Assembly (NCBI GenBank): GCA_013140575.1
Contig: JABFSN010000064.1
Span: 1-40,053, forward strand
Length of the DNA stretch: 40,053 nt
Direction: 5' to 3'
From: Phycisphaerales bacterium
GTDB taxonomy: Bacteria; Planctomycetota; Phycisphaerae; UBA1845
In this document: positions 10,953-33,821 of the stretch, piece after piece
Position numbering within the stretch: the stretch's first letter is position 1
Layout: the number at the start of each line of letters is the position of its first letter
Notes under the pieces: model-generated
What the model was told of the DNA's origin: nothing
Databases searched by the model: none
What the model saw: the letters and a program-made list of their open reading frames with translations, nothing else
Translations under genes and position numbers: made by a program

Positions 10953-10953
10953 G

Positions 10954-12402
10954 TCAGGCGGCCCCCGGCTCGCGCGCCGCGAGCGCCATGGCGTCCCGGT
11001 GGAACGCACCCGTGCTCGGCTGCGCGCACGGCTGGGACGGGGCGATGTCAACGTGGTTGCGTCGTGTGGTTTCCGTCCATAGGCCGGTGTTGTCGGATAT
11101 GGCGAGGGCGAGTTGCCAGACCGGCGCCAATGCCCCGTCCGGAAAACCCCGGGCGGTGTGCATAGCCGCCACCCGGGCCAGCGCGACGGCAAGATACCAG
11201 CCCAGTCGGGGGGAGTCGATCATCCCCCCCGCGTTATGATGGGCATCGAGAAACGCATTCAAGCGAATGAAGCCGTCATCGCCGGAGACCGAGCCGAGGG
11301 CCGCGTCCAGAACCGCATGGGCGGCGTAGGTTGCGATGTCCTGTTCGGGGTGTCCGAGACAAAGCGTGTCCCAGTCGACCAGCCAGATCGCCCGCTCGTT
11401 ACGCAGCAATTGGGCGTGGTGGAAATCGCGGTGAATGAGGGTCATGGTTTCGCGACCGGCCGTCGGGGTTTGATCGCGCAGGCGTTCGCGAATCTCCTGC
11501 AATGGCGTGGCGACGTGCGGACACAAAACGCCGAGCACGTCGTGCCAGCGATCGACCGTGTCCCATTCGTCGGCCGCGCGATGGACGCGTTCGTCGCCGA
11601 CGCACGGAAGCGAATGAATCGCCGCGGCCACCCGCGCCGCAAGGGCGACGTCCGCGGCGGCGTAATGAACCGGAGACGGCGCCGGCCAGACCTCGTCCGA
11701 AATGAGAAGCCCCAGTTCCGGCAGGGCGCCGCGCACGAGGGGCACGCGGATTTCCCCGGACGAGCGGGTGGCGAGCATGGCGGCCAGTTCGGCGGCACGA
11801 TGCAGGGAAGTCGGTCCGGGCATCCTGCGAAAACCCTTGACGAAGAGCCGGGCGCCGTCATCGTCGGTGCGGATCGCGGCGACGAAACGTCGACCCACGC
11901 GATAGGAGACCAGATTCATCGCGGGCGAGCCGGTTCGCGACGGTTCCTGCCCCGCCGGCGCAATCCTGGCGAACCGGGCGTCGGCGAGAAGGTCGTGGAG
12001 ACCGCGGGGTCGAAACAGGCGGCGGGCGGGCGGCAATTCCGGGTCGCAATCGGGGGTGGACAGCCAGGCGAATCGGACCGGGTCGGTCCGGAGTATTCCC
12101 AGCAGCGAACCGTGCTCGAAACGGATCGGTTGCTTGACGATGCGGTTTGGGGGCGAGGATATGGAAACCACACCCTGCACCGAATGCCGGCTCGCGCCCG
12201 ACGGTCCGTGGAGCGTCAGCTGAAGGTCAAACGTCAATCGGCCGTTCCGACCCGCCCATACCCGTGCGAGGCGGGTGTCGGTCAAGCCGGTTCCGGCGGG
12301 CCACACGATGGCGTTGACCAGATCGGTCAGGGCGCCCATCGGCCCGGAAGTCGGCGGGTGACAGGTCGCGTCACCAACAGGGTGTGTTGACGCGGGATTC
12401 AT
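10954..12402 (-). CDS. APH-fold phosphotransferase, third kinase of the operon
   Basis: 482 residues from the ATG at 12402, which overlaps the TGA of the preceding nuclease gene as ATGA; an upstream in-frame ATG at 12420 lies inside that gene and is less likely. The aminoglycoside-phosphotransferase/choline-kinase fold is shown by an N-lobe signature VSYRVGRRFVAAIR with a possible nucleotide-binding Lys in LFVKGF, catalytic loop HRDFHHAQ (324-331) and metal-binding DWD (LVDWDTL). The loop ends in Gln where most APH proteins have Asn. Gln also occurs here in maltokinase-type enzymes (HGDxHLGQ, from memory), which favours a sugar or polyol substrate over a drug. The first 150 residues have no recognised motif. 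It is paralogous to the two other kinases in the operon. Confidence 0.82.
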   Translation of the reverse strand: MNPASTHPVGDATCHPPTSGPMGALTDLVNAIVWPAGTGLTDTRLARVWAGRNGRLTFDLQLTLHGPSGASRHSVQGVVSISSPPNRIVKQPIRFEHGSLLGILRTDPVRFAWLSTPDCDPELPPARRLFRPRGLHDLLADARFARIAPAGQEPSRTGSPAMNLVSYRVGRRFVAAIRTDDDGARLFVKGFRRMPGPTSLHRAAELAAMLATRSSGEIRVPLVRGALPELGLLISDEVWPAPSPVHYAAADVALAARVAAAIHSLPCVGDERVHRAADEWDTVDRWHDVLGVLCPHVATPLQEIRERLRDQTPTAGRETMTLIHRDFHHAQLLRNERAIWLVDWDTLCLGHPEQDIATYAAHAVLDAALGSVSGDDGFIRLNAFLDAHHNAGGMIDSPRLGWYLAVALARVAAMHTARGFPDGALAPVWQLALAISDNTGLWTETTRRNHVDIAPSQPCAQPSTGAFHRDAMALAAREPGAA

Positions 12403-13085
12403 GGCTTGCACTTGGCGCACGGGGCGAAGCCTTTTTCCAACGCGGCCTGGTCCGAGGGGAATTCGACCAGGCGATCGGCGGGGATTTTGGGCAGCTCCTC
12501 GCAGGTGCGGCGGTGAAAATTTCCGTGGTGGGGATCGCCGGCGTACGATCGCTCGGTTCCGCCCGGGCGACGCGACCAGATCCCCCGCCGGGCCGAGCGG
12601 GCCTCCTTCTGCGCGGACAGGAGCCGCTCCGCGAATCGGTGGGACGAGGTCGTGGAACGCACGTAGGCAAGCCCCTCGCGGACGAGGGTTTCGTTGACGA
12701 AATCGTCCTCGACAAATACATAGGCCAACAACCGCCCGTCGGCGTCGCGATGCTCCTCGTCGAACCGCAGCCGAACCTTCTGCTGATCGCCGACCAGCTC
12801 CCCGTTTCGCCGCGTGGCTTCCTCGTCGAAGGGTTCGCCGCCCACCGGGGCGCGGATTCCGGCGTAAATCAGGTATTCGTCCTGATCGTTGTCGAGCTTG
12901 ATCTTCTGCCCGCTGACGGCACGCTTGACCTTGACGAAGAGGCGCTCCTCGGGGTCGGACTGCTTGGTGATTTCCTCGCGGGGGCGAAATACAATCACCA
13001 GGGCGCTCAGCGTCGCGATGGACAGGACCGCGACGCCGGCCGGAGTTCGCGCTTTGGAGAGAAGCAAATCGAACACAGTTTTCAT
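12399..13085 (-). CDS. Membrane-tethered SNase-like (thermonuclease-fold) protein
   Basis: 228 residues from the ATG at 13085, which overlaps the stop of the pseudopilin gene as ATGA. One membrane segment (about 14-33) is followed by a staphylococcal-nuclease-like OB-fold domain (about 50-165), with YAGIRAP, EPFDEEATRRN and DADGRLLAYVFV aligning to the regions that carry the catalytic Arg/Glu/Arg. The Glu and the last Arg look preserved. The first Arg position appears to be Tyr or shifted, so catalysis is uncertain. The C-terminus (about 185-228) is a small Cys/His module (FHRRTCEELPKI...CAKCKP) of the kind found after bacterial SNase domains, which probably binds a metal. The domain would face the periplasm or exterior. 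A nuclease-type gene inside a glycan operon is unexpected. Confidence 0.82.
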   Translation of the reverse strand: MKTVFDLLLSKARTPAGVAVLSIATLSALVIVFRPREEITKQSDPEERLFVKVKRAVSGQKIKLDNDQDEYLIYAGIRAPVGGEPFDEEATRRNGELVGDQQKVRLRFDEEHRDADGRLLAYVFVEDDFVNETLVREGLAYVRSTTSSHRFAERLLSAQKEARSARRGIWSRRPGGTERSYAGDPHHGNFHRRTCEELPKIPADRLVEFPSDQAALEKGFAPCAKCKP

Positions 13086-13768
13086 CGGGCGCCTCGATTG
13101 ATCTTGTCCCACATGTCCTCGAGCAAATCGTTGTCCTCGGGTTGGAACGGATGGGTCAACTCGTTGTCGGTCAGGAATCCGGTGTCGGGAACCCAGCGGA
13201 CGTCGCCGCCGAGATAGGCGGCGTTGATGCCGTTGCGATGGCCGCTGCGGATCAGCTTGGGCAGATGAAACACGTCGGTGAACAACGCGGGGTTCCCGCG
13301 GAGTTGCGACAGCGATTTACCCGTCAGGTTGTAGCGCCGGCCGTAGCTGGCACGCGTGTCCAGCAACGGCACGACCGGCCAGGGATTTTCAGGCGTGGCG
13401 AAACTATGGTAGGGGTCGGTCTGCCGCGGGCAGTACAGCGTCTCCAGCTTTTCGAGGTTCTTGCCCAGAGAAATCAACGGACCGAAGTTGGAGTCGAAAT
13501 CCCGACCGTCGTAGATCAGGTAATTGTATTGCCATGCCCCGTCATCGAGTTCATTGTTCAGATCCGGAAACCGGTCGTACACGCTCAAATACGTCGTCGA
13601 CGCCAGGTAGATCGCGTGCAGGTGGGCGCGACACTGGATGTCACGGGCCTGCACTCGCGCCCGCTTGAGTGATGGAACCAGGATCGACACCAGCAGGGCG
13701 ATGATGCCGATCACCACCAGCAACTCGATCAACGTAAAGCCGCGAGCGCGGCGCCGCAGGACGCGCAT
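13082..13768 (-). CDS. Prepilin-type (pseudopilin) protein
   Basis: 228 residues with a textbook type IV prepilin leader: a basic n-region, then G10/F11 in GFTLIELLVVIGIIALL with Glu at mature position 5. A prepilin peptidase should cleave after Gly10 and methylate Phe. The rest is a soluble domain with a planctomycete pseudopilin-like ending (GHRNGINAAYLGGDVRWVPD). Such proteins are usually carried by type II secretion or pilus-like machines. No assembly ATPase or secretin gene is in the window, so it must use machinery encoded elsewhere. The start has GAGGGA a few bases upstream and lies 16 bases after the second kinase gene. The downstream SNase gene starts inside its stop codon. Confidence 0.9.
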   Translation of the reverse strand: MRVLRRRARGFTLIELLVVIGIIALLVSILVPSLKRARVQARDIQCRAHLHAIYLASTTYLSVYDRFPDLNNELDDGAWQYNYLIYDGRDFDSNFGPLISLGKNLEKLETLYCPRQTDPYHSFATPENPWPVVPLLDTRASYGRRYNLTGKSLSQLRGNPALFTDVFHLPKLIRSGHRNGINAAYLGGDVRWVPDTGFLTDNELTHPFQPEDNDLLEDMWDKINRGAR

Positions 13769-13784: not shown

Positions 13785-15185
13785 TCACTTCGTAACGCCG
13801 CCGGCGAGTCCACAGCCGGGCGTCAGGTCCGGCATCCGCCGGCTTTCAAACGTCTCGTGATCCAACAGATGCCGGGCCATTCTCCACAACAGCGGGCGGT
13901 AACCGGACGTCCGCGAGCGCAGCGCGTGCACCGCCCCCAGGCGAAACAGCGAGCTGGCCATGTAGAATGCCAGGTGGTGGCGATTCAACCGGCCGCGCTG
14001 CCCTTCGTATTCGCTTACAAACCCCTCCGCCAACGCGGGAAACGCGCACGCATCGCCGCGTGAGGCCAGTTCGCGCAGCAGGAGGTGGGCGAGGTAGTTT
14101 CCGATGTCCACGCACACGTCACCGCGGGCCATGGTGTCCAGGTCCAGAACGGTGACGCACCGGGGCGACAGGATCAGCTGCTTTTCATAAAAGTCGCGGT
14201 GGATGGCGGCCGGCTCCTTGTCGGAGGTTCGGGCCGACGCCGCCTCGAGGCGGGCGGCCAAGTCATCGGCTTCCCCGGCGACCGGGGGAATCAGGCGCCC
14301 GATGACTCGCCGCCAGCGGTCCACGACGGCATACTCGTCCCGCGGGCCGAAGGCGTCGAAGTCCCCGTGGGGCAACTCGTGTACGATGACCAGCGCCTCG
14401 ACGGCCGCCCGCGACACGGCGTCGGTTGCGTGCCCCACCGTTTCCGCCCGCGCCCCCGGCATCCACACGAACAGGGCCATGTTCAATTCGTCGTCGAATC
14501 CCACCGGCGCGGGCACGCGGACCCGGCCGCCGCAGCGCCGGCGCAGCTCCTCGCTGACCCGCAGGTGAAGTTGAATGAGCCGCCGGCCTCGATCATCGCG
14601 AAACGTCTTCCCGCAAAGATGAACGTTTTGTCCGGTCGCTTCCCCGTTCCCGAACCGCACCGTGGCCCGGCGCCCGGGCCGATAGCCGCCCAGGCGGCAA
14701 CGCAGCGAGTGTCGTTCGCCGGCACCCGCCCGGGGACGCAGCCCGAACGCCACCAGACGATCGGACATTCGATGCCGATCCAGACAAACCGACATCTGCG
14801 GCAGGAATGCGTCCCGGTCGGGTGAGCGCAGGACAAGGTCCGCGCCCGGGACCCGCATCTCCAGGCCGCGCAGCCCGTCCGCGGTCAGCGTCGGTTCCGT
14901 ACTTGCCGTGGGATCGGACGCACGCGACCGTCGGTGTTTGCGCATCGCACCCCATTCGCCGTATACCGCGTGACGTCGCCCCCGCGCCGCGAATGTCCAT
15001 TCCAGCGCGAATCCCGAAGCGACCGGCGCTCCCACCGGCCAACACCGTTCGACGCGTACGTCATCCGCGGCGCCGCCCGCGCAGATCGACGGCATCAGCG
15101 AACGGAACAAACCGGCCACGGAACCGCCGTTCAGCAGGTCGCAGTTGCGATCCTGAATCCGAACCGGAAGGGAGGCGGCGTTCAT
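13785..15185 (-). CDS. APH-fold phosphotransferase, second kinase of the operon
   Basis: 466 residues from the ATG at 15185 (MNAASLPVRIQDR), chosen because it overlaps the TGA of the upstream kinase gene as ATGA; the longer frame starting at 15395 lies inside that gene. APH fold: N-lobe signature GGYRPGRRATVRF and a candidate ATP-binding Lys in LCGKTF, an acidic helix, catalytic loop HRDFYEKQ (329-336) and metal-binding DLD (VLDLDTM). The Asn of the usual HxDxxxxN loop is Gln, as in the other two kinases. The catalytic His lies at residue 329, against 324 and 326 in the paralogues, so the three share overall architecture. Substrate unknown; a sugar, glycolipid or small-alcohol intermediate of the operon is the best guess. 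Confidence 0.82.
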   Translation of the reverse strand: MNAASLPVRIQDRNCDLLNGGSVAGLFRSLMPSICAGGAADDVRVERCWPVGAPVASGFALEWTFAARGRRHAVYGEWGAMRKHRRSRASDPTASTEPTLTADGLRGLEMRVPGADLVLRSPDRDAFLPQMSVCLDRHRMSDRLVAFGLRPRAGAGERHSLRCRLGGYRPGRRATVRFGNGEATGQNVHLCGKTFRDDRGRRLIQLHLRVSEELRRRCGGRVRVPAPVGFDDELNMALFVWMPGARAETVGHATDAVSRAAVEALVIVHELPHGDFDAFGPRDEYAVVDRWRRVIGRLIPPVAGEADDLAARLEAASARTSDKEPAAIHRDFYEKQLILSPRCVTVLDLDTMARGDVCVDIGNYLAHLLLRELASRGDACAFPALAEGFVSEYEGQRGRLNRHHLAFYMASSLFRLGAVHALRSRTSGYRPLLWRMARHLLDHETFESRRMPDLTPGCGLAGGVTK

Positions 15186-16543
15186 GCGACCTCCTCGCGG
15201 CTGGCCGCGCGAATCAGATCGTCGACCGCCCGGGTCACGCATTCCGCGACGAACGGCTGCCACCAGGGGCGCAGATGCCGCAGAATGCCGCGGGCCAGTT
15301 CCAGCCGCGAGCGGGCGGCCAGCAGATGGAACCGGGCGGGGTTCCATTCGCATCGCGATGCGTCTTTCCAGCAGGCGAGCAGGGCTCCGCGCCATCGGTC
15401 GGCGGTCACGGCGTCCACATCGTGATCGGGACGTACGCCGAGCATGTGGAGTTGTGTGGCCAGATTGGCGACGTCGATGTCGGCGGCGCCGACGGCCAGA
15501 CGTTCCAGGTCCAGAATCGCCACGCGGTTTTTCTTGACCGTCACCTGGTTCCCATGAAGATCGTTGTGCAGGGTGACGGGGGGGCCGGATTCCATGCCCG
15601 CCAATCCCCGCGGCAGCCCTTCCGCAAGGATGGACAGCGGTTCATGCAGATCCGGACACGTCGCGGTCAGGTCGGTGAGCGCGTCCGCAACGCTGTTGAC
15701 CAGACCCACGCCGGTCAGCTCGGCAAGATCGGGGATGGTCATTCCGTGGAATTCGCGCAGGGCCCGAACCACCCGCGTCATTACCTCGAACTCGTCCCCG
15801 CGACGCAATGCCTCGACCAGCGTGTCACCGCGCAGCCACTCCAACGCGAGCAGCCCGCGCCGCGGGTTGAACCCCACGACGCCGGGCACGACGAACCCCG
15901 ACGCACCGCCCCCGACGCGCCCGCAAACCTGACGGTGACGCCGTTCCAGACGCTGGCAACCGGCCGTGGGACTGGATCGCACCGCGACCCGCCGTGTGAC
16001 GACCGCACCTCCGGTCGTCGATGACCATTCGGCACGAACGCGCACCACGCATTTCTGTTCGGGCACATAACGCACCAGTTTCCGCTGCAGCGTGTCTTCA
16101 TCCACTTGTTCCCCGGATCCGCCGGACCACGATCGCCAGGTCTCCAGCACGCGATCGCGGCGGGCGAACGTGCGCAGCCCGCGAAGCCGGCGATCGTTCG
16201 GGAAGCAGTAGGCTTCCACGTCGTGCCCGGCGATGCGCAGCACGTCGCCCCGACGGGACATCGTTGCGCGCAACGGAGTGAACAACGCGAGGAGTTGTTC
16301 CTCCGGCCAGGCGCGGTCGGTCGGCGTGGCGGGGTTCCGCAGCAGGGCGTAGACCATGCGGGCGTAACGCCCCGGGTGATAGAGCGCCTCGATCAGTCGT
16401 GCCTCCCGCCAGCACTCGCGCTCCGCGGGGTCCACGCGATGCAAACGGTCGCGGGCCGCCTCCAGCACGGCCGTTGAATCCATACACGCGGGCAGCGCGG
16501 AGAGCGCGGGCTCCGTCGGCAGTGGAACGCCGCACGCTAACAT
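15182..16543 (-). CDS. APH-fold phosphotransferase, first kinase of the operon
   Basis: 453 residues from the ATG at 16543, which lies inside the last codons of the ABC exporter gene (7-base overlap). The first 130 residues carry no known motif. The APH-like part has an N-lobe signature RYVPEQKCVVRVR, an inter-lobe segment LLALEWLRGDTLVEAL, catalytic loop HNDLHGNQ (326-333) and DLE in place of DFD/DWD (AILDLERL). The last position of the catalytic loop is Gln, shared with both paralogues. It is cytoplasmic and has no membrane segment. Immediate adjacency to the exporter suggests it acts on a precursor before export. Divergence from the two other kinases is high, so they probably have different acceptors and are not redundant copies. 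Confidence 0.82.
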   Translation of the reverse strand: MLACGVPLPTEPALSALPACMDSTAVLEAARDRLHRVDPAERECWREARLIEALYHPGRYARMVYALLRNPATPTDRAWPEEQLLALFTPLRATMSRRGDVLRIAGHDVEAYCFPNDRRLRGLRTFARRDRVLETWRSWSGGSGEQVDEDTLQRKLVRYVPEQKCVVRVRAEWSSTTGGAVVTRRVAVRSSPTAGCQRLERRHRQVCGRVGGGASGFVVPGVVGFNPRRGLLALEWLRGDTLVEALRRGDEFEVMTRVVRALREFHGMTIPDLAELTGVGLVNSVADALTDLTATCPDLHEPLSILAEGLPRGLAGMESGPPVTLHNDLHGNQVTVKKNRVAILDLERLAVGAADIDVANLATQLHMLGVRPDHDVDAVTADRWRGALLACWKDASRCEWNPARFHLLAARSRLELARGILRHLRPWWQPFVAECVTRAVDDLIRAASREEVA

Positions 16544-18393
16544 GCGATTTTCTCCCGCGATTCGTCCGCCGCCGTTCCCATCGCCGACGCGTGAAGCGAT
16601 GCGTACTCGCCGCCGCGTTGCAGCAATTCCGCATGTGTGCCTTCTTCGCGAATCCGTCCTTCGTGGAGCACCAGAATGCGATGAAACCGTTCCATGTCCC
16701 GCAGCCGGTGGCAGATCACCAGCGTGGTCGCGGTGTTTTCAGGCGAAAGCCACGCCTCCTCGACGATCCGCCGCGATCGCGCGTCCAGTCCGGTGGCCGG
16801 TTCGTCCAGAAGCAGAATCGAAGGGTGGTGCAGGAACGCACGCGCCAGGGCGATGCGTTGCCGTTGCCCGCCGGAAAGCGTCGCCCCCGATTGCCCCAGA
16901 ACGGTGTCGTAGCCCGCGGGCAGCCCGGCGATGAACTCGTCGGCATGGACCCGGCGGGCCGCGTCGCGAATGGCTGATTCCGGCGCCTCGTGGAACCCCA
17001 GCGCGATGTTCTCCGCGATGGTCATGCCGAACAGAATGGTGTCCTGATGAACCCAGCCGATGTGCCGGCGCAACGACGCCAGCGTCAGGTCCTGCAGCTT
17101 GATGCCGTCGACGCGGATGGTCCCTTCCCGCGGGTCATAAAAACGAAGCACTAACTTCGCCAGCGTGGTCTTGCCCGCGCCGGAATGACCCACGATGGCC
17201 ACACGCTCGCCCGCCCCGACTTGAAGCGAAACGTCGTTCAACGCCGGGCGGCCCTCGTCGTATTCAAAACGGACGTTTTCGAACGCAAGCTCCCCCTTGA
17301 CCTCGGTCAATGTACGGCTGCCGGTCGTGTCGCGGACCGCGGGCTCCACGGCCTGAATCTCAGCGATGCGCTCCGCGCAGGTGGTGGCCTTGGCCACCTG
17401 CCCCGCGACTTTCACGACCTGCCGCACGGGCTTGCCGATGGAGCGAAGATAGGCGACGAACACCAGCAACTCGCCGGCCGTCATCCGCCCGCGCAATACC
17501 GAGTCCACGCCGAGGTACAAAATGGCGCAGGTGGAAACCGCGGACGCCAGTGCCACCATCCGGAAGAGTTTGGATTCCAGCCGCGTGGTCTTCAATCCCG
17601 CGCGAACCGTGCTGCGGTCGTGCCGGAAGAAGCGTTTCTGTTCGATGATTTCCCTATTGAACGCCTGGATGATGGACATGGCCCCGAGTACGTCATGGGC
17701 GATGTTGGCGACAACGCCCTCCTTTTCACGCTGGTTCTTCGTGGCCCGCTGAATCTGCCGGGAAATCCGCCAGCCCGCGAGGAGGGTGAAGGGAATGATC
17801 GCCAGCGCCACGGCCGCCAGCAGCGGGTTCAACAGAATCATGACCACGACCAGCGCGAGAATCGTCACGCCGGCCTGACCGATGGTGACCACCGAGCCGA
17901 CCAGCATGACCCGCAGCATGGTGATGTCGCCGGTCAGACGCATCAGCAGATCGCCCGTTCGGCGGCGTTCAAACGTCGACGGCGGAAGCGATTGCAGATG
18001 CGCGAACAGATTGCGGCGGATCTTCCCCACCACGCGCTGTCCGACGCTCGCCAGGGCCACGTCGCGGATGTGCGAAAACAGGGCCTCGACCGCCCCCACC
18101 ACGAGAATGGCCGCGCAGGCCAGCATCAGAATGCCGCGCCCGGTCATCATCCCCGTCGGTTCCAGCGCGGTCAGCCACGTCGGCGGGTTACGATCGGACA
18201 ATACGAAATCGAAAACCCATTGGATCGGCCAGGGCGCCGCGAGCTGCGCCGCCGTGGCCGCGATGGCCGCCAGCCCCGCACCCACCAGCAGCGGCGCGTG
18301 CGGACGCACGAATGGGGCGAACCGCAGCCACAGGCTTCCCGCCCGGGCCACGTCCAGCTTGCCCCGCCGGGTCTTGATCTTCCAGCCCGACAT
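16537..18393 (-). CDS. ABC exporter, fused membrane and ATPase domains (MsbA-like)
   Basis: 618 residues from the ATG at 18393, which overlaps the stop of the upstream glycosyltransferase as TGATG; an upstream frame extension lies inside that gene. The membrane domain (about 20-330) has six predicted segments, with the helix-loop FERRRTGDLLMRLTGD typical of type IV exporters (MsbA/LmrA class). The ATPase domain (about 365-600) has Walker A GHSGAGKT (402-409), signature LSGGQ (506-510), Walker B SILLLDEP and an H-loop His in ICHR. It should act as a homodimer, or pair with a partner encoded elsewhere, to flip a lipid-linked or amphipathic product across the membrane. Position among glycosyltransferases and kinases points to a glycolipid or glycan cargo. 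Confidence 0.92.
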   Translation of the reverse strand: MSGWKIKTRRGKLDVARAGSLWLRFAPFVRPHAPLLVGAGLAAIAATAAQLAAPWPIQWVFDFVLSDRNPPTWLTALEPTGMMTGRGILMLACAAILVVGAVEALFSHIRDVALASVGQRVVGKIRRNLFAHLQSLPPSTFERRRTGDLLMRLTGDITMLRVMLVGSVVTIGQAGVTILALVVVMILLNPLLAAVALAIIPFTLLAGWRISRQIQRATKNQREKEGVVANIAHDVLGAMSIIQAFNREIIEQKRFFRHDRSTVRAGLKTTRLESKLFRMVALASAVSTCAILYLGVDSVLRGRMTAGELLVFVAYLRSIGKPVRQVVKVAGQVAKATTCAERIAEIQAVEPAVRDTTGSRTLTEVKGELAFENVRFEYDEGRPALNDVSLQVGAGERVAIVGHSGAGKTTLAKLVLRFYDPREGTIRVDGIKLQDLTLASLRRHIGWVHQDTILFGMTIAENIALGFHEAPESAIRDAARRVHADEFIAGLPAGYDTVLGQSGATLSGGQRQRIALARAFLHHPSILLLDEPATGLDARSRRIVEEAWLSPENTATTLVICHRLRDMERFHRILVLHEGRIREEGTHAELLQRGGEYASLHASAMGTAADESREKIAC

Positions 18394-19730
18394 CAGGCGG
18401 CCTCCGGCTGGGCGGCGGGATTCTGCCCCATCGCGGAAGCTGATTCGCCGGCGATCACGGGTCGGACGTCGGCCGGGGATGTTTCTCCCTGCGCGACGTC
18501 CGCGAAGAATTCCCGCATGCGGGCGACGTTTTGCCGCGCGTCGAAGAGTTGTTCGGCCCGCCGCCGCCCCTGCTCCGCCAGCGATCGCGAAAGCTTCGCG
18601 TCGATCAGCACCCGTCCGATTGCGTCGGCCAGCGCCGCGTCGTCTTCGGGTTCGACCAGCAGTCCGCTTTCTCCGTTCTCGATAATCTCGGGAACGCCGC
18701 TGAGACGCGTGCTGACACTCGGGCACGCGCAGGCCAGGGATTCGAGCAGAACGGTGGGCAGCGCGTCGATGTTGCCGTCTTTGGCCTGAACGCAGGGCAG
18801 CGCGAAGCACGACGAGTGCCGCATCCATTGGCGGACCTCGTCCTGCCGAAGTGAACCCATCAGGTGAACCCGATCGCCGAGGTTGCGTACGTGGATTTCG
18901 CGGCGGAGGAGCGCTTCGTCGCGCCCCTCGCCGGCGATCCGGCAGACTACGGGAAGCCCTCGATCACGAAGCGCCCCCATCGCCCGGATCAGGTGCACGA
19001 ATCCCTTTTTCTCGATCAACCGTCCCACGCTGAAAACCGAGTACGGCTCGCGAACGGAATCCCCCGGCGAAAATTCATCGAGGTTGATCCCGTTGTAATT
19101 CACATGGATCTTCCGGGGGTCCACGCCGGGAAGCGCTCGCCGGAGGTAGGCTCCATTGGACTGGCACACCGTCACCGTGAACCGCGACGCGTTGATCTTG
19201 GCCGCCAGCAGCGAACGGTCCACGTTGTCGCGGAAAATGTCGAACGCGTGCAGCGTCAGGCTGTACGACGGCCCGCCCAACAGATACGCGAACATGGCCA
19301 CGTCGGCCTCGTCAGTGCCGAAATGTACGTGAACGTGCCGGACCCGCTCCCTGTGCGCCCAGCGGATCAGTGCCGCCGCCTGGCATAACTCGAACCACTC
19401 GATGCCGCGGTGCCGCCGCACCAGCCGCACCACTTCGGCGTAGGCCCGCGGCGACTGACGGAACAACTTCCACTGGGCGAGCAATTGCGAACCGCCGCGA
19501 CCCAGGAATCGCTCTTCCAGGTAGGTCGCCTGGGCCCGGACCCGGGTCACCGACTCGTGAAACACCCCCTCGTTGGGCAATCGCAACGACGCGATGCGTA
19601 TGTCGACCCCCTGGCGCTCCAGCTCGCGAATCTCGTTGACCACGAACGTCTGGCTGAACCTCGGATACATCCGCAGCAGGTAACCAACCCGCAACGGTGG
19701 AGGCGTGTGGTTTTCGTGGTCCGTTGTCAT
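18393..19730 (-). CDS. GT4-family glycosyltransferase (WcaL/colanic-acid-like)
   Basis: 445 residues. The N-terminal Rossmann-like domain has YLLRMYPRFSQTFVVNEI, typical of colanic-acid-type GT4 enzymes. The acceptor-side motif HVHFGTDEADVAMFAY and LTLHAFDIF follow. The nucleotide-sugar domain has SVGRLIEKKGF, then the E-x7-E-like motif around DALPTVLLESLACACPSVS and the tail VPEIIENGESGLLVEPED. It retains the donor configuration of a sugar-nucleotide-dependent GT-B enzyme. No membrane segment; it probably acts at the cytoplasmic face. The start follows the previous stop by 12 bases, with AAGG just before the ATG. The gene end overlaps the exporter start. Confidence 0.9.
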   Translation of the reverse strand: MTTDHENHTPPPLRVGYLLRMYPRFSQTFVVNEIRELERQGVDIRIASLRLPNEGVFHESVTRVRAQATYLEERFLGRGGSQLLAQWKLFRQSPRAYAEVVRLVRRHRGIEWFELCQAAALIRWAHRERVRHVHVHFGTDEADVAMFAYLLGGPSYSLTLHAFDIFRDNVDRSLLAAKINASRFTVTVCQSNGAYLRRALPGVDPRKIHVNYNGINLDEFSPGDSVREPYSVFSVGRLIEKKGFVHLIRAMGALRDRGLPVVCRIAGEGRDEALLRREIHVRNLGDRVHLMGSLRQDEVRQWMRHSSCFALPCVQAKDGNIDALPTVLLESLACACPSVSTRLSGVPEIIENGESGLLVEPEDDAALADAIGRVLIDAKLSRSLAEQGRRRAEQLFDARQNVARMREFFADVAQGETSPADVRPVIAGESASAMGQNPAAQPEAA

Positions 19731-19742
19731 TGCCTTAGACCC

Positions 19743-21017
19743 CTAACCGACCGCGACACCCGAACACGCCGCATGATTGGCCGATTCCGATCGGTTGTCT
19801 CGCGCCGATTGGACAAGGGCCACCATTTGCCGCGCGGCGCGTTCCCACGTGTACCGATCACACACCTTCACCCGGGCACGCTCGGCCGCCGCCCGTCGCC
19901 AGGACGGCGAGCGCCGGGCATATTCCAATTGCGCCAGCAGCCCGTCCCTCTCCCCCGCCGCGCACAGCAACCCATCGACGCCGTCCTCAATCACCTCCGC
20001 CAGTTGCCCGATGCGCGACGCGATCACGCAGACGCCGGCGGCCATGTACTCGAACACCTTGATGGGCGAGAAGTAAAAGTCCTCCACGGGCAGAAACGGC
20101 GCCACGGCCACGTCCATCGCTGTCAACAGGTCCGGAATCTCTCCGTGCGGAACGGCGCCGGTCATCACCACCCGGTGGGTCAGCGCCAGACGTTCAACCT
20201 CCGCCCGGAGACCGGCCGCGGTGGGCCCGTCGCCGACGAGCAACAACCGCGCTTCCGAATCGCGCCGCGCCACCTCGGCGAACGCCTGCAGCAGCACATC
20301 GACGCCGTGCCAGGGTTTCAGGCTTCCGGCGAATCCCACCACGAATCCGTCCCCCAGTCCCAACTCCGCCCGAACATCGGCCGGCGACCGGACGCCCGCG
20401 AACTCCCGCAAATCGACCCCGTTGGGGACCACTTGGATTCGTTCCGCGTCCACGCCGTCGTCCGCCAGACGCCGCGCCAGTTCTTTCGAGACTGCGGCCA
20501 CCCGGTCGGCGCTCCGCAGCACGCGGGATTCCATCTCCGCCGCCAACGCCTGCAACTGCAATCCGCGAAACGTGCCGGCCTCGTTCGTCAGCGGCGCGTT
20601 CACTTCCAGGATCAGGGGCACGTCAAACGCCTGGGCCAGGTCCAATCCGAGGTGTCCGAACAGCGACAGACGCTCGATTACGGCATCCGGCGGCCGAAGA
20701 CGAAGAGCGTCCGCGGCCCTGCCCGGCGCCCAGGCGTTGAAAATCAACGGGCGCAGTTCCCGGGCCGCCCCTTGCGGCAACCCGCGATCGCCCAGCCAGT
20801 CGCGAAGTAGTTTGGCGGCGTCTTCCGCTAGGTCGCAGGGCTCGTGAACCACGGGGCGGGCGGGATGGTCAACGCCCGGCACCCCACGGGGGCTCAACAG
20901 AAACACCTCGTGGCCCAAGTCGGCCAATGCCCGGGTGATGGCCCGCAGGTGGATCGCGGCCCCCTTGGTCCCGTCGGGGCGGATTCCCCAATCGCTACAG
21001 ACATACAGCAGCCGCAT
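19743..21017 (-). CDS. GT4-family glycosyltransferase
   Basis: 424 residues from the ATG at 21017, picked because GGAGG lies 6 nt before it and the protein then begins with the expected strand MRLLYVCSDWG; a longer frame to 21062 would add 15 weak residues. The gene start lies 23 bases inside the end of the upstream gene. The GT-B fold is shown by the N-terminal glycine-rich loop TKGAAIHLRAITRALADLGHEV, the central VVPNGVDLREF, the donor-domain strand FVVGFAGSLKPWHGVDVLLQAF and the C-terminal SPIKVFEYMAAGVCVIAS with GQLAEVIEDGVDGLL. It probably adds one sugar to a lipid-linked or soluble acceptor. The donor is not predictable. Confidence 0.9.
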   Translation of the reverse strand: MRLLYVCSDWGIRPDGTKGAAIHLRAITRALADLGHEVFLLSPRGVPGVDHPARPVVHEPCDLAEDAAKLLRDWLGDRGLPQGAARELRPLIFNAWAPGRAADALRLRPPDAVIERLSLFGHLGLDLAQAFDVPLILEVNAPLTNEAGTFRGLQLQALAAEMESRVLRSADRVAAVSKELARRLADDGVDAERIQVVPNGVDLREFAGVRSPADVRAELGLGDGFVVGFAGSLKPWHGVDVLLQAFAEVARRDSEARLLLVGDGPTAAGLRAEVERLALTHRVVMTGAVPHGEIPDLLTAMDVAVAPFLPVEDFYFSPIKVFEYMAAGVCVIASRIGQLAEVIEDGVDGLLCAAGERDGLLAQLEYARRSPSWRRAAAERARVKVCDRYTWERAARQMVALVQSARDNRSESANHAACSGVAVG

Positions 21018-22188
21018 CGGGAACCTCCGCTTTCCAGAACGTGCCGAAACGGTCGCAGACACGGTCCAGTCCGTTGAAGTCCATTTCGTCGCATATGTGC
21101 GTCGGTCCCCGACCCAGCATTCCCACCACCCGTTCCGCCAGCGTCGCCGGCGTCAACTGATCCACGCCCAGCACATCCACCACGCCCCGCTCCGCCCACA
21201 CCTGCGCCCGAATCGCCTGCTCCAGACGCGGCTTCGTGCGCGGCACGATCAACGCCGGTTTGCGGTGCGCCGCGATCTGACACAACGTGTTGTATCCCCC
21301 CATCGACACCACAAGTTTGGCCGCGCGAATCCGGCACATCATGCACGGCTCGAAGTCCAGCCATTGAACGCCGTTCATGCCCTCCGCACGCCGACGCAGG
21401 GCCTCGGCCGGCCCGGGCGGCAAATCGGGTCCCCCGACGATTACCGACCGGTAGCCGGCCCGCCCCACATGATCCGCTGCGTTCGACAGATAGCGCTCCA
21501 GCAGAAACTCCCCGTCGGTCCCGCCGCCCACCGTCACCAGCACGTACGGGTCGCCGCAAGCCTCGGACGCGGCGTGTCCGCACCGTCCCCGCGTGACGTA
21601 TCCCATGAACGACAGCTTCTCCTCGACCGATTCCGGCAGGCGGTAGGCACGAACCACGTCGAACATCGAACGCACGCCGTAGACCCAGATCTCGTCGAAG
21701 CACGACTCCAGCGCCTCCACGACGCCCGACTGGCGCCATTGAGCGATCGTCGCCTCGGGCGAATCCTCAATGTCGCGCATGCCGAAAACGATCCGCACAT
21801 CGGGTCGGTGGCGGCGCAGCCAGCGCAGCGACGGCAGCAACTCGCCGCACACGCCGATCGCGGCCTTGTCCACCAGCACGATCTCGGGATCAAAATGCTC
21901 GACCGTATCCCGCAACACCGTCTTGCGATATTCGATCAGGTCGTTCGAGGACATGGGCAGGTACTTGCCCCGGTAGGTCTCCGGCGCTTCCTTGGCCAGA
22001 GCCGGCAGTTTGATGTAGTCCAACCGTTGAAGGTTCTGAAACAGCGGCACGTACGGCGTCCCCGTCGCCACCAGAAAACTGGAAAACGGATACGTCCGCC
22101 CCACCCGGTCGCAGATCGAGAGCGTTCGCGTCAGGTGGCCGATGCCCACGCTGTCGTGGCAATACGCGAATACGCGACCTCGTGCCAA
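20995..22188 (-). CDS. GT28/MurG-like glycosyltransferase, first gene of the operon
   Basis: 397 residues from a TTG start at 22188. This start has GGAGG 6 nt upstream, and the protein then begins correctly with GRVFAYCHDSVGIGHLTR, the glycine-histidine loop of MurG-like GT-B enzymes. An ATG at 22260 would add 24 basic, non-conserved residues and lies very close to the predicted transcription start. The C-terminal domain has VLVTVGGGTDGE and the GT28-type donor motif VVSMGGYNTLCQIAAHRKPA followed by a Pro-Arg loop. It probably transfers a sugar from a nucleotide donor at the inner membrane surface. It is first in the operon, behind a sigma-54-type promoter, and its end overlaps the next glycosyltransferase by 23 bases. 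Confidence 0.88.
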   Translation of the reverse strand: MARGRVFAYCHDSVGIGHLTRTLSICDRVGRTYPFSSFLVATGTPYVPLFQNLQRLDYIKLPALAKEAPETYRGKYLPMSSNDLIEYRKTVLRDTVEHFDPEIVLVDKAAIGVCGELLPSLRWLRRHRPDVRIVFGMRDIEDSPEATIAQWRQSGVVEALESCFDEIWVYGVRSMFDVVRAYRLPESVEEKLSFMGYVTRGRCGHAASEACGDPYVLVTVGGGTDGEFLLERYLSNAADHVGRAGYRSVIVGGPDLPPGPAEALRRRAEGMNGVQWLDFEPCMMCRIRAAKLVVSMGGYNTLCQIAAHRKPALIVPRTKPRLEQAIRAQVWAERGVVDVLGVDQLTPATLAERVVGMLGRGPTHICDEMDFNGLDRVCDRFGTFWKAEVPDAAAVCL

Positions 22189-22261
22189 GGAAATCCTCCG
22201 ACCGCGGATGCGGATGTGCCGCCGGCGAACCGAGCCGAACGCTACCAAGGGCGAATTCATG

Positions 22262-22276
22262 GCATTTGACGTGCCA
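22262..22276 (-). promoter_or_regulatory. Sigma-54-type promoter for the ten-gene operon
   Basis: On the minus strand, TGGCAC at 22276-22271, five bases, then ATGC at 22265-22262. The -24 element is perfect, spacing is exact, and the -12 element differs from TTGC at one base. Predicted start is near 22250, about 60 nt before the TTG of the first gene. The divergent partner site lies 235 bases away. Confidence 0.65.
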
Positions 22277-22313
22277 GTCGCCGGATTACGCCGGTGCCCC
22301 TGGCAACAGCGCT

Positions 22314-22326
22314 GGATTGACAATCC
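22314..22326. promoter_or_regulatory. Perfect palindrome GGATTGACAATCC between divergent promoters
   Basis: A 6-1-6 inverted repeat located 38 bases upstream of the operon-side -24 element and 185 bases upstream of the plus-strand promoter. A possible activator or repressor site. Only one copy was seen, and the assignment is by position and symmetry only. Confidence 0.3.
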
Positions 22327-22398
22327 GACCGTTAGCGTGGTGCCTGAACACCCTCCACCTGTCCTTCGTCCGTGGACGGGCTCGCATTGGGGCGGTTC

Positions 22399-22439
22399 GC
22401 GCTGCGAGTTTGCACACACCCACTCGAAAATCGCAGCGC
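22399..22439. promoter_or_regulatory. Paired 9-bp inverted repeat, candidate enhancer
   Basis: GCGCTGCGA at 22399-22407 and its exact reverse complement TCGCAGCGC at 22431-22439, with half-site centres 32 bases apart (about three helical turns). It lies 72-112 bases upstream of the plus-strand sigma-54 site and 120-170 bases from the minus-strand site, within the usual range for an NtrC-type enhancer. It could also be a simple RNA hairpin. Confidence 0.35.
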
Positions 22440-22510
22440 CCAACGCCGGCTGGGAACACTAATAACTGCTTGGATGGCGTTTCATTTGGTCGCCGGTTTT
22501 CGTTGGTCTC

Positions 22511-22526
22511 TGGCACGTGACTTGCT
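22511..22526 (+). promoter_or_regulatory. Sigma-54 promoter, consensus match
   Basis: TGGCACGTGACTTGCT matches the sigma-54 consensus TGGCACG-N4-TTGCW at every defined base, with correct spacing. Predicted transcription start is near 22536, giving a leader of about 105 nt before the ATG at 22640. It lies in a true divergent intergenic region. Confidence 0.8.
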
Positions 22527-22639
22527 TGGTGAACCGCATGGGTGGGAGGGGATGCCGACTCCGTTTCGTTCGGATCGATGGCTTCGTCATCGAATCAGTA
22601 TCCCTGACTTTTTGACTGTCACGAACAAGGCGGTTTCGC

Positions 22640-25471
22640 ATGAAGTTCGAATTGGCTGCACGGTGCGTTTTCGTTCCCGCGATGATCTTGGCGTGCGCCG
22701 TCGCTACGTTCGGCCAAGTACCCAATCGCCCGGTCATCACCGAGGTGTTCACCGATCCGCCGGGCGACAACGACGGACCGGTGGGGCGGCTCGGCGGCAA
22801 CGCGCATCAGGAGTACATCGAGATTTACCTGCCCCCGTCTGCTTCGCTTTCGGCCACGTTGAACAAGGACGCATTGCGACTGACCTTCTATGAAGTCGAG
22901 GGCGATTCGACGAGTTCCGGTCTCGGGCTGGTCAACTATCGGTTCGATCTTCCCACGTTCGATCTCGATCCGTCGAACGGCATAACCCCGGGTGCCATCC
23001 CGCGCCCCTCCACCGGGGTCGTCGTCCTCGGATGGGTCGACTACGCCTCCACCGCTCCGGTCGTGTTGGCCGGAACTTCCGCGACGCGCGTGGCCATGAT
23101 CAACGGGGGCATCACCTCCACCGGCGGGACCTACACCTTCATAGCCATGAACGGCGCGCAGGATGGCGGCACCACCAACTTCCCCGTCCCCACGGCCGAA
23201 AACAAGATCGATATGCCCGCCGAGGCGGGCAGCGGCGTCATCCAAAACGGCTCGGCCGCGTACCTGCTGGTTAACCGCGATTCGCCCTCCTACGTCATGC
23301 TCTGCGACGACGCCCACACCGCGGAATGTCCGGCCGGCTCCGATCCGCAACTGGCCAACGACGCCGTCGGACTCAACACTCCCGCGTCGCTCGACGGATT
23401 GGCCTGCAACGACCACGGCAAGTTCCTGGTGACCGACCAGCCCTACGACGCCCCCACGGGTGACGATATTGACCTGGAAACGGTGCTGCCGCTGGGCGGG
23501 GCCTTCAGCCTGCTCGTGCCCCAGGTGCCGGAGGTTGACACTTCCGCGACCTTCGCCGGTGTGGCCAACGGATACGCCCGCCGGTTCGTCGACGTCGCCA
23601 AAACCACCGAAACCGCGGCCGACGACGATCCCGTGGCGGACGCCACGACGGCTTACCGCCACGTGCGCAACGACGGCCCGTTCTTCCCCTCCCCGGGACG
23701 GGCGGCGTTGACCACCACGCCGCCGGAACTCGGGGTGGCCGGATCGATCGAACAGTCCGTCCAGGTGTTGGCCGACACCACCGGTCGTCCGGGCATTCTG
23801 GCGGCCAACGTGGGCGGCAATTACCCGGTGAATCTCTCGACCGCCGCCGGCGCGTCCAGCAATTCCCTGGTCGCAACGTTCGCCGCGGGATCCTCTGCGA
23901 CGGGCGTCCCCGGGCAGACGCTTGGATTCCCAACCGTCGCGGTCACGGTCGCACCGGGCGCGACCCACGGCGCCGTGGCCGACGCCACCGTCACCGTGAC
24001 GGCCAACAACGCCAATGGCGGCGATCCGCCCGTGGCGGCGCCCATTCAGAACACGACGCTCACGGCCACGGTCTTGAAACCGACCGCGGGACTGACCGCC
24101 TCGGGTCTGCCATTTCAGACCACCGTCTTCGCGGCCATCCAGGGCATTCCGGCCAGCGCCGGGCTCACCAACGAGTTTCGGGCGACGAGTCTCGGCGCGG
24201 CGGTTGCCGCAAATCTCGGCGGCGCGATATTGGACACGCTGACGAACGGCGCCGTCTTGGCGGACTCGACAACCAACATCGGAAACGGCGTGCTCATGCA
24301 GACCATCATTCGGGATTTCCCGGACCCGGCGTTCTACATCGAGCTCCCCGGACCGCCGGGCGAGCCAAGCCTGGTGCAGGCCGTCCTCCAGTCGGCCGAG
24401 GTGCAAAGCGGCGCGTCCACCTACGACAACAGCTTCGACGTCGGATTGACCGTGTTACGGGCGATTCGCTTTAACCTGCCCGATACATTCACTTTCGGCG
24501 GCTTCTTCACGCCCACCGAGACCCTCCAATTCGTCGACGCCACCGGTCGCGCCGGACGGGTGCGCAGCGGTCTGTCCAACGCGACCACCACGCGGACGTT
24601 CGAATTGGCGATCCTCGACACCAACGTCAAGGACGACAACTCGCTGGAAACCGGCGCCACCGACGATGTCGGGATCGTCGTCGAGGTTGAGACCGTTGAG
24701 GCCGGATCGCCCGTGGCGCCCGGCGAATTCGTCTTTCTCAGTTACACGGGAGGTCTGCAGGGCGCGGACATCGATGGCGTCGATGTTCCGCCCGGCAACA
24801 ACATCGCGACCATCCTGTTTCTCGACCTCGACAACCTGCACACCGTTCTCGGAATTCGCACGCTCGAAGCGATTATCCTTGTGGACGGCAGCGGGACCGG
24901 CGAGCTGGACGTCGCGGAGATATTCAGTCTGAACGCCTCTTCCCAGCAGCCGTCAGTCGTGGCCGCCACGCCCAACAACGGCGCCAGCCTGTGGCGCACG
25001 TCGCTCAACACCGTGCGGCTCAGCTTCAGTCAGGACATCACCACGCCGGCCGCCGGTCAGGTTGAGATACGGCAATTGCTTCCGGGCGGTCTCTTCGGAC
25101 CGGATCTGTCGGGGGGTTTCGGAATGCTGGTGCAAGAGGGCGTCGGCGGCAGTCCTCGCGTGTTGAGAATCCGTGATACCGGCGGCGGCGACCTCGTTCA
25201 CCGGAACTGGTACGCGATTCGCAACGCCGGTACGTGGGCGGGCGTGGCGGACTTCGAATTGCACTACCTGGTGCAGATCGGCGACGTCGACGGCGACATG
25301 GAGGTGCTGGACGCGGACGTGGACGTCACGAACCTGGCGATTCCATCGTTGACCCCGTCGGGCGACGATCGCCGAAACGTGGATGGCGACGGCGCCATCC
25401 TCAACGCCGACGCCAGTTCGACCAACGCCAGGATTCCGTCGCTGTTCGTGCCCAAGCCGTCGGGGCATTGA
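22640..25471 (+). CDS. Large secreted protein with lamin-tail-like start and dockerin-like end
   Basis: 943 residues with AAGGCGG 6 nt before the ATG. The signal peptide is about residues 1-26, ending at the FGQ/VPN region. The mature N-terminus (VITEVFTDPPGDNDG...HQEYIEIYLP) resembles a lamin-tail domain. The middle is beta-rich, Thr/Ala/Gly-rich sequence with no catalytic motif, including repeated extended-filament-like strings around 370-480. A late Ig-like segment (about 765-800, SVVAATPNNGASLWRTSLNTVRLSFS) precedes a C-terminal two-part calcium module, GDVDGDMEVLDADVDVTNLAIPS and NVDGDGAILNADASSTNARIPS. That paired module ending in PSGH is a known planctomycete-style dockerin-like tail (from memory). 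Probably a surface or matrix protein. It is controlled by the sigma-54 promoter at 22511 and divergent from the glycan operon. Confidence 0.88.
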   Translation: MKFELAARCVFVPAMILACAVATFGQVPNRPVITEVFTDPPGDNDGPVGRLGGNAHQEYIEIYLPPSASLSATLNKDALRLTFYEVEGDSTSSGLGLVNYRFDLPTFDLDPSNGITPGAIPRPSTGVVVLGWVDYASTAPVVLAGTSATRVAMINGGITSTGGTYTFIAMNGAQDGGTTNFPVPTAENKIDMPAEAGSGVIQNGSAAYLLVNRDSPSYVMLCDDAHTAECPAGSDPQLANDAVGLNTPASLDGLACNDHGKFLVTDQPYDAPTGDDIDLETVLPLGGAFSLLVPQVPEVDTSATFAGVANGYARRFVDVAKTTETAADDDPVADATTAYRHVRNDGPFFPSPGRAALTTTPPELGVAGSIEQSVQVLADTTGRPGILAANVGGNYPVNLSTAAGASSNSLVATFAAGSSATGVPGQTLGFPTVAVTVAPGATHGAVADATVTVTANNANGGDPPVAAPIQNTTLTATVLKPTAGLTASGLPFQTTVFAAIQGIPASAGLTNEFRATSLGAAVAANLGGAILDTLTNGAVLADSTTNIGNGVLMQTIIRDFPDPAFYIELPGPPGEPSLVQAVLQSAEVQSGASTYDNSFDVGLTVLRAIRFNLPDTFTFGGFFTPTETLQFVDATGRAGRVRSGLSNATTTRTFELAILDTNVKDDNSLETGATDDVGIVVEVETVEAGSPVAPGEFVFLSYTGGLQGADIDGVDVPPGNNIATILFLDLDNLHTVLGIRTLEAIILVDGSGTGELDVAEIFSLNASSQQPSVVAATPNNGASLWRTSLNTVRLSFSQDITTPAAGQVEIRQLLPGGLFGPDLSGGFGMLVQEGVGGSPRVLRIRDTGGGDLVHRNWYAIRNAGTWAGVADFELHYLVQIGDVDGDMEVLDADVDVTNLAIPSLTPSGDDRRNVDGDGAILNADASSTNARIPSLFVPKPSGH

Positions 25472-30817: not shown

Positions 30818-30876
30818 TCGTGCGGCGCGATCAGGGCGCCCGCGGCACGAGGTGCGTGGAACCCGCCCCACGAGTT

Positions 30877-30895
30877 CACGGGCAGGATGCCCGTG
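30877..30895. repeat. REP-like hairpin CACGGGCA / TGCCCGTG
   Basis: A perfect 8-bp stem with a 3-base loop, followed by CCACAACC. The strings 'cacgggcaggatgcccgtgcc' are common as interspersed repeats in planctomycete genomes (from memory). No coding role seen. Confidence 0.4.
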
Positions 30896-31053
30896 CCACA
30901 ACCCGCGTGCCACATTGCGACACTACCCGATGCGACCGGTTGGCGCAGCCCCCGCTTTTTTGGGCGGGAAACGCCGGTTGCGTCGGGCATGTCGGTTCGA
31001 AGATTTTTCGGATTCGCAAATCAGCCGCGGGCGGGGTCGCCGCCGTGGGCATT

Positions 31054-31215
31054 TCAGGCCGGACAACAGGCATGCAGGGCGTCGGCCCGCGCGTGCAGCG
31101 ACTCGGCGAGGCCGGCGTAGCGGACGGCATGGAGGACGGTCCGACCCTGTTTTTCGACGGTGAGGATGCCGGATTCGTGGAGGATCGCGAGGTGGCGGGA
31201 GAGGACGGAGATCCG
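31054..31215 (-). pseudogene. ArsR-family regulator, C-terminal remnant
   Basis: The minus-strand frame without a start codon reads VLSRHLAILHESGILTVEKQ, then GRTVLHAVRYAGLAESL, then ADALHACCPA and a TGA at 31056-31054. The strings SRHLAILHESGIL and the beta-wing EKQGRTVLHAVRY are the recognition helix and wing of an ArsR winged-helix repressor, and the CC pair near the end is typical of one planctomycete subgroup. Only about 50 codons remain. The 5' part, including the start, is replaced by phage terminase sequence on the other strand at about 31207. It cannot produce a working repressor. Confidence 0.7.
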
Positions 31216-31819
31216 ATCGACGAGTCGGCGCTCGAGGGCAAGCTGTGCTTCGCGGGTCTGGATTTGTCAACCACCACCGACCTGAGCGCCCTGGTGCTGG
31301 CGTTTCCGCACGATGACGGGAGCGTGACGCTGCTGCCGCGGTTCTGGGTGCCGGCCGACAACGCCGAGAAGCGCGAACGCCGCGATCGCGTGCCCTATCA
31401 GACCTGGGCCCGGCAGGGGTTCATCGAGATGACGCCGGGCAACGTCATCGACTACGGCCGCATCCGGGCTTGCTTCGATCAGCTCTACGAGCGGTTCAAT
31501 ATCAATGAGATCGCGGTGGATCGCTGGAACGCGACGCAGTTCATCACCCAGCTCACCGACGAGGGCTACAACGTGGTCCCCTTCGGTCAGGGGTTCAAAG
31601 ACATGACCGCCCCGACCAAGGAGTTGGAGAGGCTGGTCATCAGTGCCATGCTCAGGCACGGCGGGAACCCCGTCCTCCGCTGGATGGCCCGGCAACCTCA
31701 AGCCCTTGAAGAAGAAATCCACCGACCGCATCGACGGACTGGTCGCCGCTATCATGGCCCTGGGCCGCCTGCTCCTGACCACCCCGGACTCCGACGATCC
31801 GGGGTTTACGTTCATCTGA
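31207..31819 (+). pseudogene. Phage terminase large subunit (TerL) nuclease-domain remnant
   Basis: The frame from about 31207 reads DESALEGKLCFAGLDLSTTTD, PRFWVPADNAEKRERRDRVP, GFIEMTPGNVIDYGRI, AVDRWNATQFITQL and TKELERLVISAMLRHGGNP. This is a typical ordered match to the C-terminal nuclease domain of phage and prophage terminase large subunits. After RWMA the reading moves by one base into the adjacent frame, which continues correctly as GNLKPLKKKSTDRIDGLVAA and ends at TGA 31817-31819. The roughly ten residues normally between these parts are missing. The N-terminal ATPase half is absent. It is therefore a truncated, frameshifted relic, and no other phage genes are nearby. Confidence 0.82.
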
Positions 31820-32440
31820 GGGAGTCTTCGTCTGAGGAAGCCCTCGTCTCCGCACCGGCGCCGGCAATCTCCAACCGTCCGGCGGCGCTGCCACCACCGT
31901 CCCAATTCCGCGTCGAGGGCAAGAATCGTGACACCCTTTCGTCAACGTCGTCGATGCGCAGAAGGTGACTGAAGCGTCAATGGGTGTCATACGCATGCCG
32001 CGTGCCAATGGACCGTGGAGAGTAGTCATTTATCGGGACGCGCATCGAGTGGCATCGGATGGCGTTCAGCGCAGTTTAGCACAGGATGGCACTCAATAGA
32101 GTTATAACAGGTTGCCTGCACGGATGTTGCAGCATCGTGTAGCAGGCTCATAGCTGTACAGACAGCCGTCCCGCGCACGAGCGTCGGGAGCCATGCCTGT
32201 TTTCCCCAGGACGGCTGGATTGATGCGAACCGGTGTTTCGCTGGCCAACGGGCCAAGTGACGCCATCGTGATAGTTTCAAGTCGGATGGGTTCGAACCAA
32301 CGAGCCGTGCTCGAACGCATACGTGATTGTGCGTGCACTTGACGAGGTCGGTGTGTAGAATTGCGGCCCCCGGGCGGCAGGCGCGGGGCGAAAATCGAGG
32401 GGGAGCCCGAAGTCGGACGGGGCCGCGACACGGTCATTGC
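31820..32440. other. Gap of about 620 bases, no confident gene
   Basis: Frames on both strands are short and lack recognised domains. A 118-codon minus frame (32102-32458) has no ribosome binding site or family resemblance. A sigma-54-like string lies on the minus strand at 32007-31993, but no gene follows it. GGGTTCGAACC-like sequence near 32287 is not part of a foldable tRNA. Confidence 0.45.
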
Positions 32441-33805: not shown

Positions 33806-33821
33806 TGGCACGCGTAATGCT
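33806..33821 (+). promoter_or_regulatory. Sigma-54-type promoter upstream of the NxxGxxAF-repeat gene
   Basis: TGGCACGCGTAATGCT has a perfect -24 element and correct spacing, with one mismatch in the -12 element (ATGC for TTGC), the same variant as at 22262-22276. Predicted start is near 33832, about 29 nt before the ATG at 33861. Confidence 0.6.

Follow-up and report, generated by a model that had tools for sequence, protein, structure and literature searches.

We propose that the intergenic region at positions 22189-22639 of the window (the whole 40,053-nucleotide stretch of Phycisphaerales DNA analyzed here) is probably a bidirectional sigma-54 control region, in which a shared enhancer and a linked two-component system switch a leftward operon and the rightward gene for a protein, P1, together. 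Sigma-54 polymerase would wait at two outward-facing promoters. Signaling by a histidine kinase (6500-7909) would lead to phosphorylation of an NtrC-type activator, for which the product of 8152-9567 is the likeliest candidate. The activator would then bind two dyads separated by about three helical turns and, through DNA looping, open both promoters. A single signal would in this way turn on the leftward glycan and export operon along with rightward P1. Both promoter sites, the conservation of the pair in some of the relatives, the tandem dyads, and the linkage of the regulator in three genomes come from sequence comparison; binding, looping, the identity of the activator, the signal, and the single transcript of ten genes are the parts that we infer. 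With good support, the model predicts regulation of an ordinary type in a system so far unstudied.

The original prediction had placed two outward-facing sigma-54 sites in this region, each at a sensible distance from its gene, and the sequence confirmed both points. The predicted right promoter (22511-22526, plus strand; TGGCACGTGACTTGCT), which aligned in 10 loci, has no mismatches to TGGCACN5TTGCW. The predicted left promoter (22261-22276, minus strand; TGGCACGTCAAATGCC) is an exact match to TGGCACN5WTGC and has two mismatches to TGGCACN5TTGCW. Both sites carry GG at -24 and GC at -12 with a 10-bp spacing, and the genome encodes rpoN (sigma-54). When the 40-kb window was scored with a sigma-54 consensus matrix, the right and left sites ranked first and fourth. 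Transcription is predicted to start at 22537 on the right, leaving a leader of 103 nt before the ATG at 22640, and at 22250 on the left, leaving a leader of 62 nt before the TTG at 22188. This TTG, the start codon of the left gene GT1, was picked by its ribosome site, a GGAGGA five bases upstream. No Rfam family was found in the window.

Ten leftward genes, all on the minus strand and closely packed, would form one transcript. The first is GT1, a GT28-like glycosyltransferase (20995-22188), and it is followed by two further glycosyltransferases, GT3 (19743-21062) and GT2 (18393-19730), and by an ABC exporter with membrane and ATPase domains (16537-18828). Next come a conserved protein without a Pfam family (15182-16543; it has a very weak match to LxmK, 24 bits against a cut-off of 315), APH-family kinase 2 (13785-15395), a pilin-like protein with an N-methylation motif (13082-13768), a staphylococcal-nuclease-like protein (12399-13112), APH-family kinase 1 (10954-12420), and, as the last gene, a sulfatase (9594-11192). 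For GT3, GT2, the exporter, both APH-family kinases, and the sulfatase, the coordinates are open reading frame limits. Gene order was largely kept in the context loci compared. GT1 had matches in 27 of 100 genomes at an E value of at most 0.001, some of them weak, and in 21 of 114 genomes of the order at 1e-100, with its own genome included in both counts and all of the latter among the earlier GT1 genomes. The cluster would probably assemble a surface glycan or glycoprotein.

On the right, P1 (22640-25471, plus strand) is a protein of 943 amino acids that had been described as a secreted dockerin protein. The first half of that description held, in that P1 looks secreted from a signal peptide recognized by eye, but "dockerin" is only loosely right: the C terminus has a degenerate dockerin-like appearance by eye, and there was no Pfam dockerin match in P1 or in its two end pieces at E values up to 10. 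Of two C-terminal pieces of P1 orthologues that were tested, the one from G053 gave a subthreshold match to Dockerin_1 (20.2 versus 22.9 bits). P1 had matches in 37 of 100 genomes, its own included, some of them in the C-terminal module only. This module (24974-25468), of about 165 amino acids and ending in KPxGH, matches many other relatives' proteins; among 10 P1 orthologue ends inspected, 5 carried KPxGH and the others looked dockerin-like by eye. The module is perhaps a sorting or anchoring signal.

By number alone, the sigma-54 motif is near chance, and its sites are not separable from background. The window contained 21 matches with up to two mismatches versus 16.0 ± 4.0 in shuffled sequence, and 14 of 100 shuffles reached 21. 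Across the 5.05-Mb genome there were 42 motif matches versus 36 for the reversed pattern, and with one mismatch to TGGCACN5TTGCW there were 131 versus 215 for the reversed control. The pair is credible because it is conserved in relatives and not because of the motif count. At a divergent spacing of 225 to 275 bp, the window pair scored above all 541 background tiles, which were 800 bp each and taken from the GT1 and activator loci of relatives, mostly coding DNA.

Conservation of the motifs upstream of orthologues had been proposed as a test of the prediction, and we examined it by comparing the GT1 upstream regions of 18 relatives with the same matrix, spacing, and tile length. Besides the window's own genome (G000), 5 of the 18 had a pair above all 541 tiles (G016, G030, G010, G029, and G015), and 3 had a weaker pair (G036, G025, and G043; background P = 0.004 to 0.009). 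G036 has a weak left site, and G043 has kept the right site and the dyads described below. No pair at this spacing was present in the remaining 10 (G019, G053, G026, G033, G020, G032, G011, G068, G071, and G089). Among these, G020 carries the two sites separated by 3 bases, and G026 has a possible degenerate pair, with sites of 9.2 and 8.2 bits at a distance of 262 bp, that was counted as none, its right site lying outside the 800-bp tile; a dyad, TGCGAA-cagg-GTCGCG, lies near the middle of the G026 pair. Outside the 18, G014 had no pair, the more distant locus L242 had the left site only, and the GT1 of G040 was cut at a contig end. In 471 kb of context from relatives, we found 76 sites of at least 12 bits and six divergent pairs at 200 to 290 bp in which both sites reached that score. 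Five of the six lie upstream of GT1, and the other lies upstream of the activator orthologue in G088, a region that is also the best-scoring background tile (30.8).

If these motifs had arisen by chance, ordinary promoters would read both genes. The motif counts, not clearly above controls, and the 10 relatives without the pair fit such an account, but we regard it as extremely improbable given that several genera share, at this locus, a pair of nearly fixed spacing in intergenic DNA that otherwise aligns poorly. It is the conserved spacing that makes a motif pair convincing when its count is no better than chance. The right neighbor of the pair also varies. It is P1 in G000, G016, G030, G010, and G025, and the sulfatase in G029 and G015. 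This argues for retention of the promoter pair in its own right, and for unchanged control of the sulfatase, a left-operon gene in G000, when it relocates.

The two sites are unequal, with the left weaker than the right in all nine regions that have the pair, window included, and not credible in G043. This raises the question of whether the right promoter alone works, the left site being a relic and the left operon being read from another promoter. We consider this quite improbable, since G029, G015, G020, and the more distant L242 all retain a strong left site, the spacing is nearly constant, and no sigma-70-like promoter was found at 22100-22700. Two working promoters remain our preferred reading.

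Midway between the promoters are tandem dyads that form a candidate shared enhancer. An alignment of the upstream regions contained a shared CTCGC/GCGAG block, and two copies of TGCGAG-N4-CTCGCA, 31 to 32 bp apart, occur in the window and in five relatives. Out of a maximum of 24, the tandem dyads scored 18 in G000, 22 in G016, 20 in G030, 19 in G010, 24 in G036, and 18 in G043, with P ≤ 0.002 from 500 shuffles in each of these six regions for a consensus derived from these same upstream regions. Among offsets of 20 to 44, an offset of 31 or 32 was best in all six, tied with 29 in G043. The two strong NtrC sites of glnA are likewise spaced by 32 bp. In the window, dyad 1 (22371-22386; CGTGGA-cggg-CTCGCA) matches 8 of the 12 consensus positions and has one good half only, and dyad 2 (22403-22418; TGCGAG-tttg-CACACA), 32 bp from dyad 1, matches 10 of 12. 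Relative to the right start, their centers lie at -126.5 and -158.5, and relative to the left start, at -128.5 and -160.5; in the other five regions, dyad centers lie about -116 to -174 from the predictable starts.

In G036, the only two exact dyads in the entire genome are both in this upstream region. The distant G089, without a sigma-54 pair, has a dyad pair that scored 18 (shuffle P = 0.0), and the tandem dyad was not significant in the other 12 of the 19 regions. It was absent from G029 and G015, both of which have the promoter pair, and G025 has one dyad (11/12) outside the tested stretch. Genome-wide, in eight genomes, there was no enrichment over the reversed control (96 versus 106 forward matches), so a large regulon is not supported. 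Of 16 activator loci, 4 (G014, G025, G033, and G088) contain dyads matching 11 or 12 of 12 positions; the one in G025 lies beside a second activator and not the orthologue. In G033, with up to one mismatch, 2 dyads fall in the 17-kb activator locus versus 14 in the whole 4.4 Mb. The window's own kinase/activator intergenic region has no good dyad (best, 8/12). Because the window dyads are degenerate, they could be read as operators of a repressor or of some other transcription factor rather than as a sigma-54 enhancer. Their position relative to the starts, their three-turn spacing, and the recurrence of the dyad at orthologous activator loci make that very unlikely, and an enhancer is the reading that we carry forward.

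The candidate activator (8152-9567, plus strand; TTG start chosen) is an NtrC-type response regulator with receiver, AAA+, and Fis helix-turn-helix domains, and the candidate sensor is the histidine kinase (6500-7909, minus strand) divergent from it. PF00158 had 11 matches in the genome, 8 of them strong, including one at 8152-9567. Together with the conserved pair and the tandem dyad, this linked kinase and activator support the earlier suggestion that the operon and the secreted protein are probably coregulated. The usual form of the sigma-54 contact loop is GAFTGA. Among 25 activator proteins, 16, including that of the window, have GAFTDA, 7 have GAFTSA, and 2 have GSFTSA or GSFTDA.

An activator orthologue of at least 52% identity was present in 14 of the 21 GT1 genomes, the window's own included; the 13 others are G010, G014, G016, G019, G020, G025, G026, G029, G030, G033, G036, G040, and G043, with fragments in G029 and G040 and a frame with one TAA in G036. 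No activator match at an E value of 1e-100 was found in G011, G032, or G053, all without the pair, and matches of only 43 to 49% were found in G015, G068, G071, and G089. Correspondence with the promoters is imperfect in both directions: G015 has the pair with an activator match of 45%, and G019, G026, G033, and G014 have the orthologue with no clear pair. In a simple tally, 13 genomes had an orthologue of at least 52%, and 9 of them carried the pair or the right site, versus 1 of 4 genomes without such an orthologue, an association that is only suggestive. The tally omits G040 and three distant genomes that lack the pair (G068, G071, and G089; activator matches of 43 to 49%). The recognition helix is nearly the same in orthologues from genomes with and without dyads and so does not discriminate.

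These patterns bear on whether the linked activator is the one that acts here. The divergent promoters and the enhancer could be real while a different sigma-54 activator binds the dyads and the linked activator serves other genes. Consistent with this, the genome encodes the 8 strong PF00158 proteins, the orthologue is on a different contig from the cluster in G016, G030, G033, and G020, and an orthologue of at least 52% occurs in nine genomes without GT1 (G005, G007, G027, G028, G039, G046, G049, G083, and G088). On the other hand, the kinase and activator genes adjoin the sulfatase end of the operon in G000, G010, and G043, and dyads matching 11 or 12 positions lie in the 4 activator loci noted above. 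We therefore judge a different activator to be rather unlikely and favor the linked protein. Two further observations concern the activator loci. In G088 (L213, 1907-2151), the activator orthologue is immediately preceded by a divergent sigma-54 pair enclosing two dyads with a separation of 20 bp, which suggests autoregulation. In G005, G014, G025, G033, and G020 (L198, L203, L204, L206, and L207), a further kinase and a second such activator (42 to 47% identity) are encoded a few kilobases from the orthologue.

Sigma-54-like sites were also seen elsewhere. Good sites lie about 40 bp before start codons at 33806-33821 (plus strand) of the window and at 1501-1516 of L046 (G000:C113:29302). The genes behind them encode paralogous proteins; the window copy matches NxxGxxAF/DUF7453, and the second was assigned from its aligned start. 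Additional exported proteins may therefore be under sigma-54 control in this organism. Sites precede genes that resemble GroEL, GroES, and Hsp20 by eye (L002, L009, and L049, on G000 contigs C3, C267, and C136), and three more divergent pairs, about 90 to 150 bp apart, occur on G000 contigs C155, C192, and C74 (L005, L008, and L037). In the window, a leftward site of 15.3 bits lies at 31992-32007 (minus strand). The open reading frame at 30820-31968 (plus strand) matches a phage terminase nuclease domain (PF20441) and sits beside secreted-protein genes.

Several known systems share parts of this arrangement. In the ZraSR/zraP system of Enterobacteria, a single two-component activator drives a divergent pair of sigma-54 promoters, and an exported protein is the product on one side (PMC4987338), much as one such activator is proposed here for two divergent promoters, one serving secreted P1. 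One side of ZraSR/zraP transcribes the regulator genes, whereas both outputs here are structural and the regulator lies beyond the last gene of the left operon; against the ZraR model NF007689, the activator scored 313.3 bits, below the cut-off of 760. In the PrsK/PrsR system, a sigma-54 motif and an activator motif lie upstream of PEP-CTERM genes, in association with glycan genes and secreted proteins (PMC1569441). The window resembles it in having an NtrC-type regulator, a membrane kinase, a predicted sigma-54 site with a candidate activator motif upstream, glycan genes, and a predicted secreted protein. Scores again fell below the cut-offs, at 347.2 bits for the activator against the PrsR model TIGR02915 (cut-off, 502.6) and 75.9 bits for the kinase against the PrsK model TIGR02916 (cut-off, 300). 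PrsK/PrsR genes are usually in tandem, whereas here the kinase and regulator are divergent and the promoters are paired. No exosortase appeared among the Pfam matches of the window open reading frames searched; the genome had five matches to exosortase PF09721, four over the cut-off and none on the window's contig (C185). An RpoN-dependent PEP-CTERM gene has been described in floc formation (PMC9850573).

The candidate enhancer, too, has counterparts. At glnA, tandem NtrC sites lie at about -90 and -140 upstream of a sigma-54 promoter (PMC7408454). Tandem candidate activator sites likewise lie upstream of a sigma-54 promoter here, but the dyad sequence differs and a single enhancer sits midway between two promoters. 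In Desulfovibrio vulgaris, a cluster contains two sigma-54 operons, orp1 and orp2, that are both served by the activator DVU2106 through palindromic sites. These are located at -131 (orp1) and -88 (orp2), and IHF sites separate them from the promoters (PMC3897727). The orp operons have separate activator sites, whereas one tandem dyad seems to be shared here. No published account of this planctomycete cluster was apparent in the listed literature on sigma-54, planctomycetes, exopolysaccharide, or regulons.

A bolder possibility, which we advance tentatively and with some doubt, is that the cluster represents a planctomycete-specific, exosortase-independent surface-glycan system. A GAFTDA-type activator with very few target regions would act through a single midway enhancer to produce a glycan-export machine and its large secreted partner at a fixed ratio, in the way that PrsR acts on PEP-CTERM proteins of Proteobacteria. 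At the level of the preferred model, the analysis offers a concrete, testable regulatory unit, consisting of a predicted kinase, activator, enhancer, two promoters, and targets, for an uncharacterized glycan and secretion cluster from a group that is largely uncultured. A joint action of P1 with this cluster is a further prediction.
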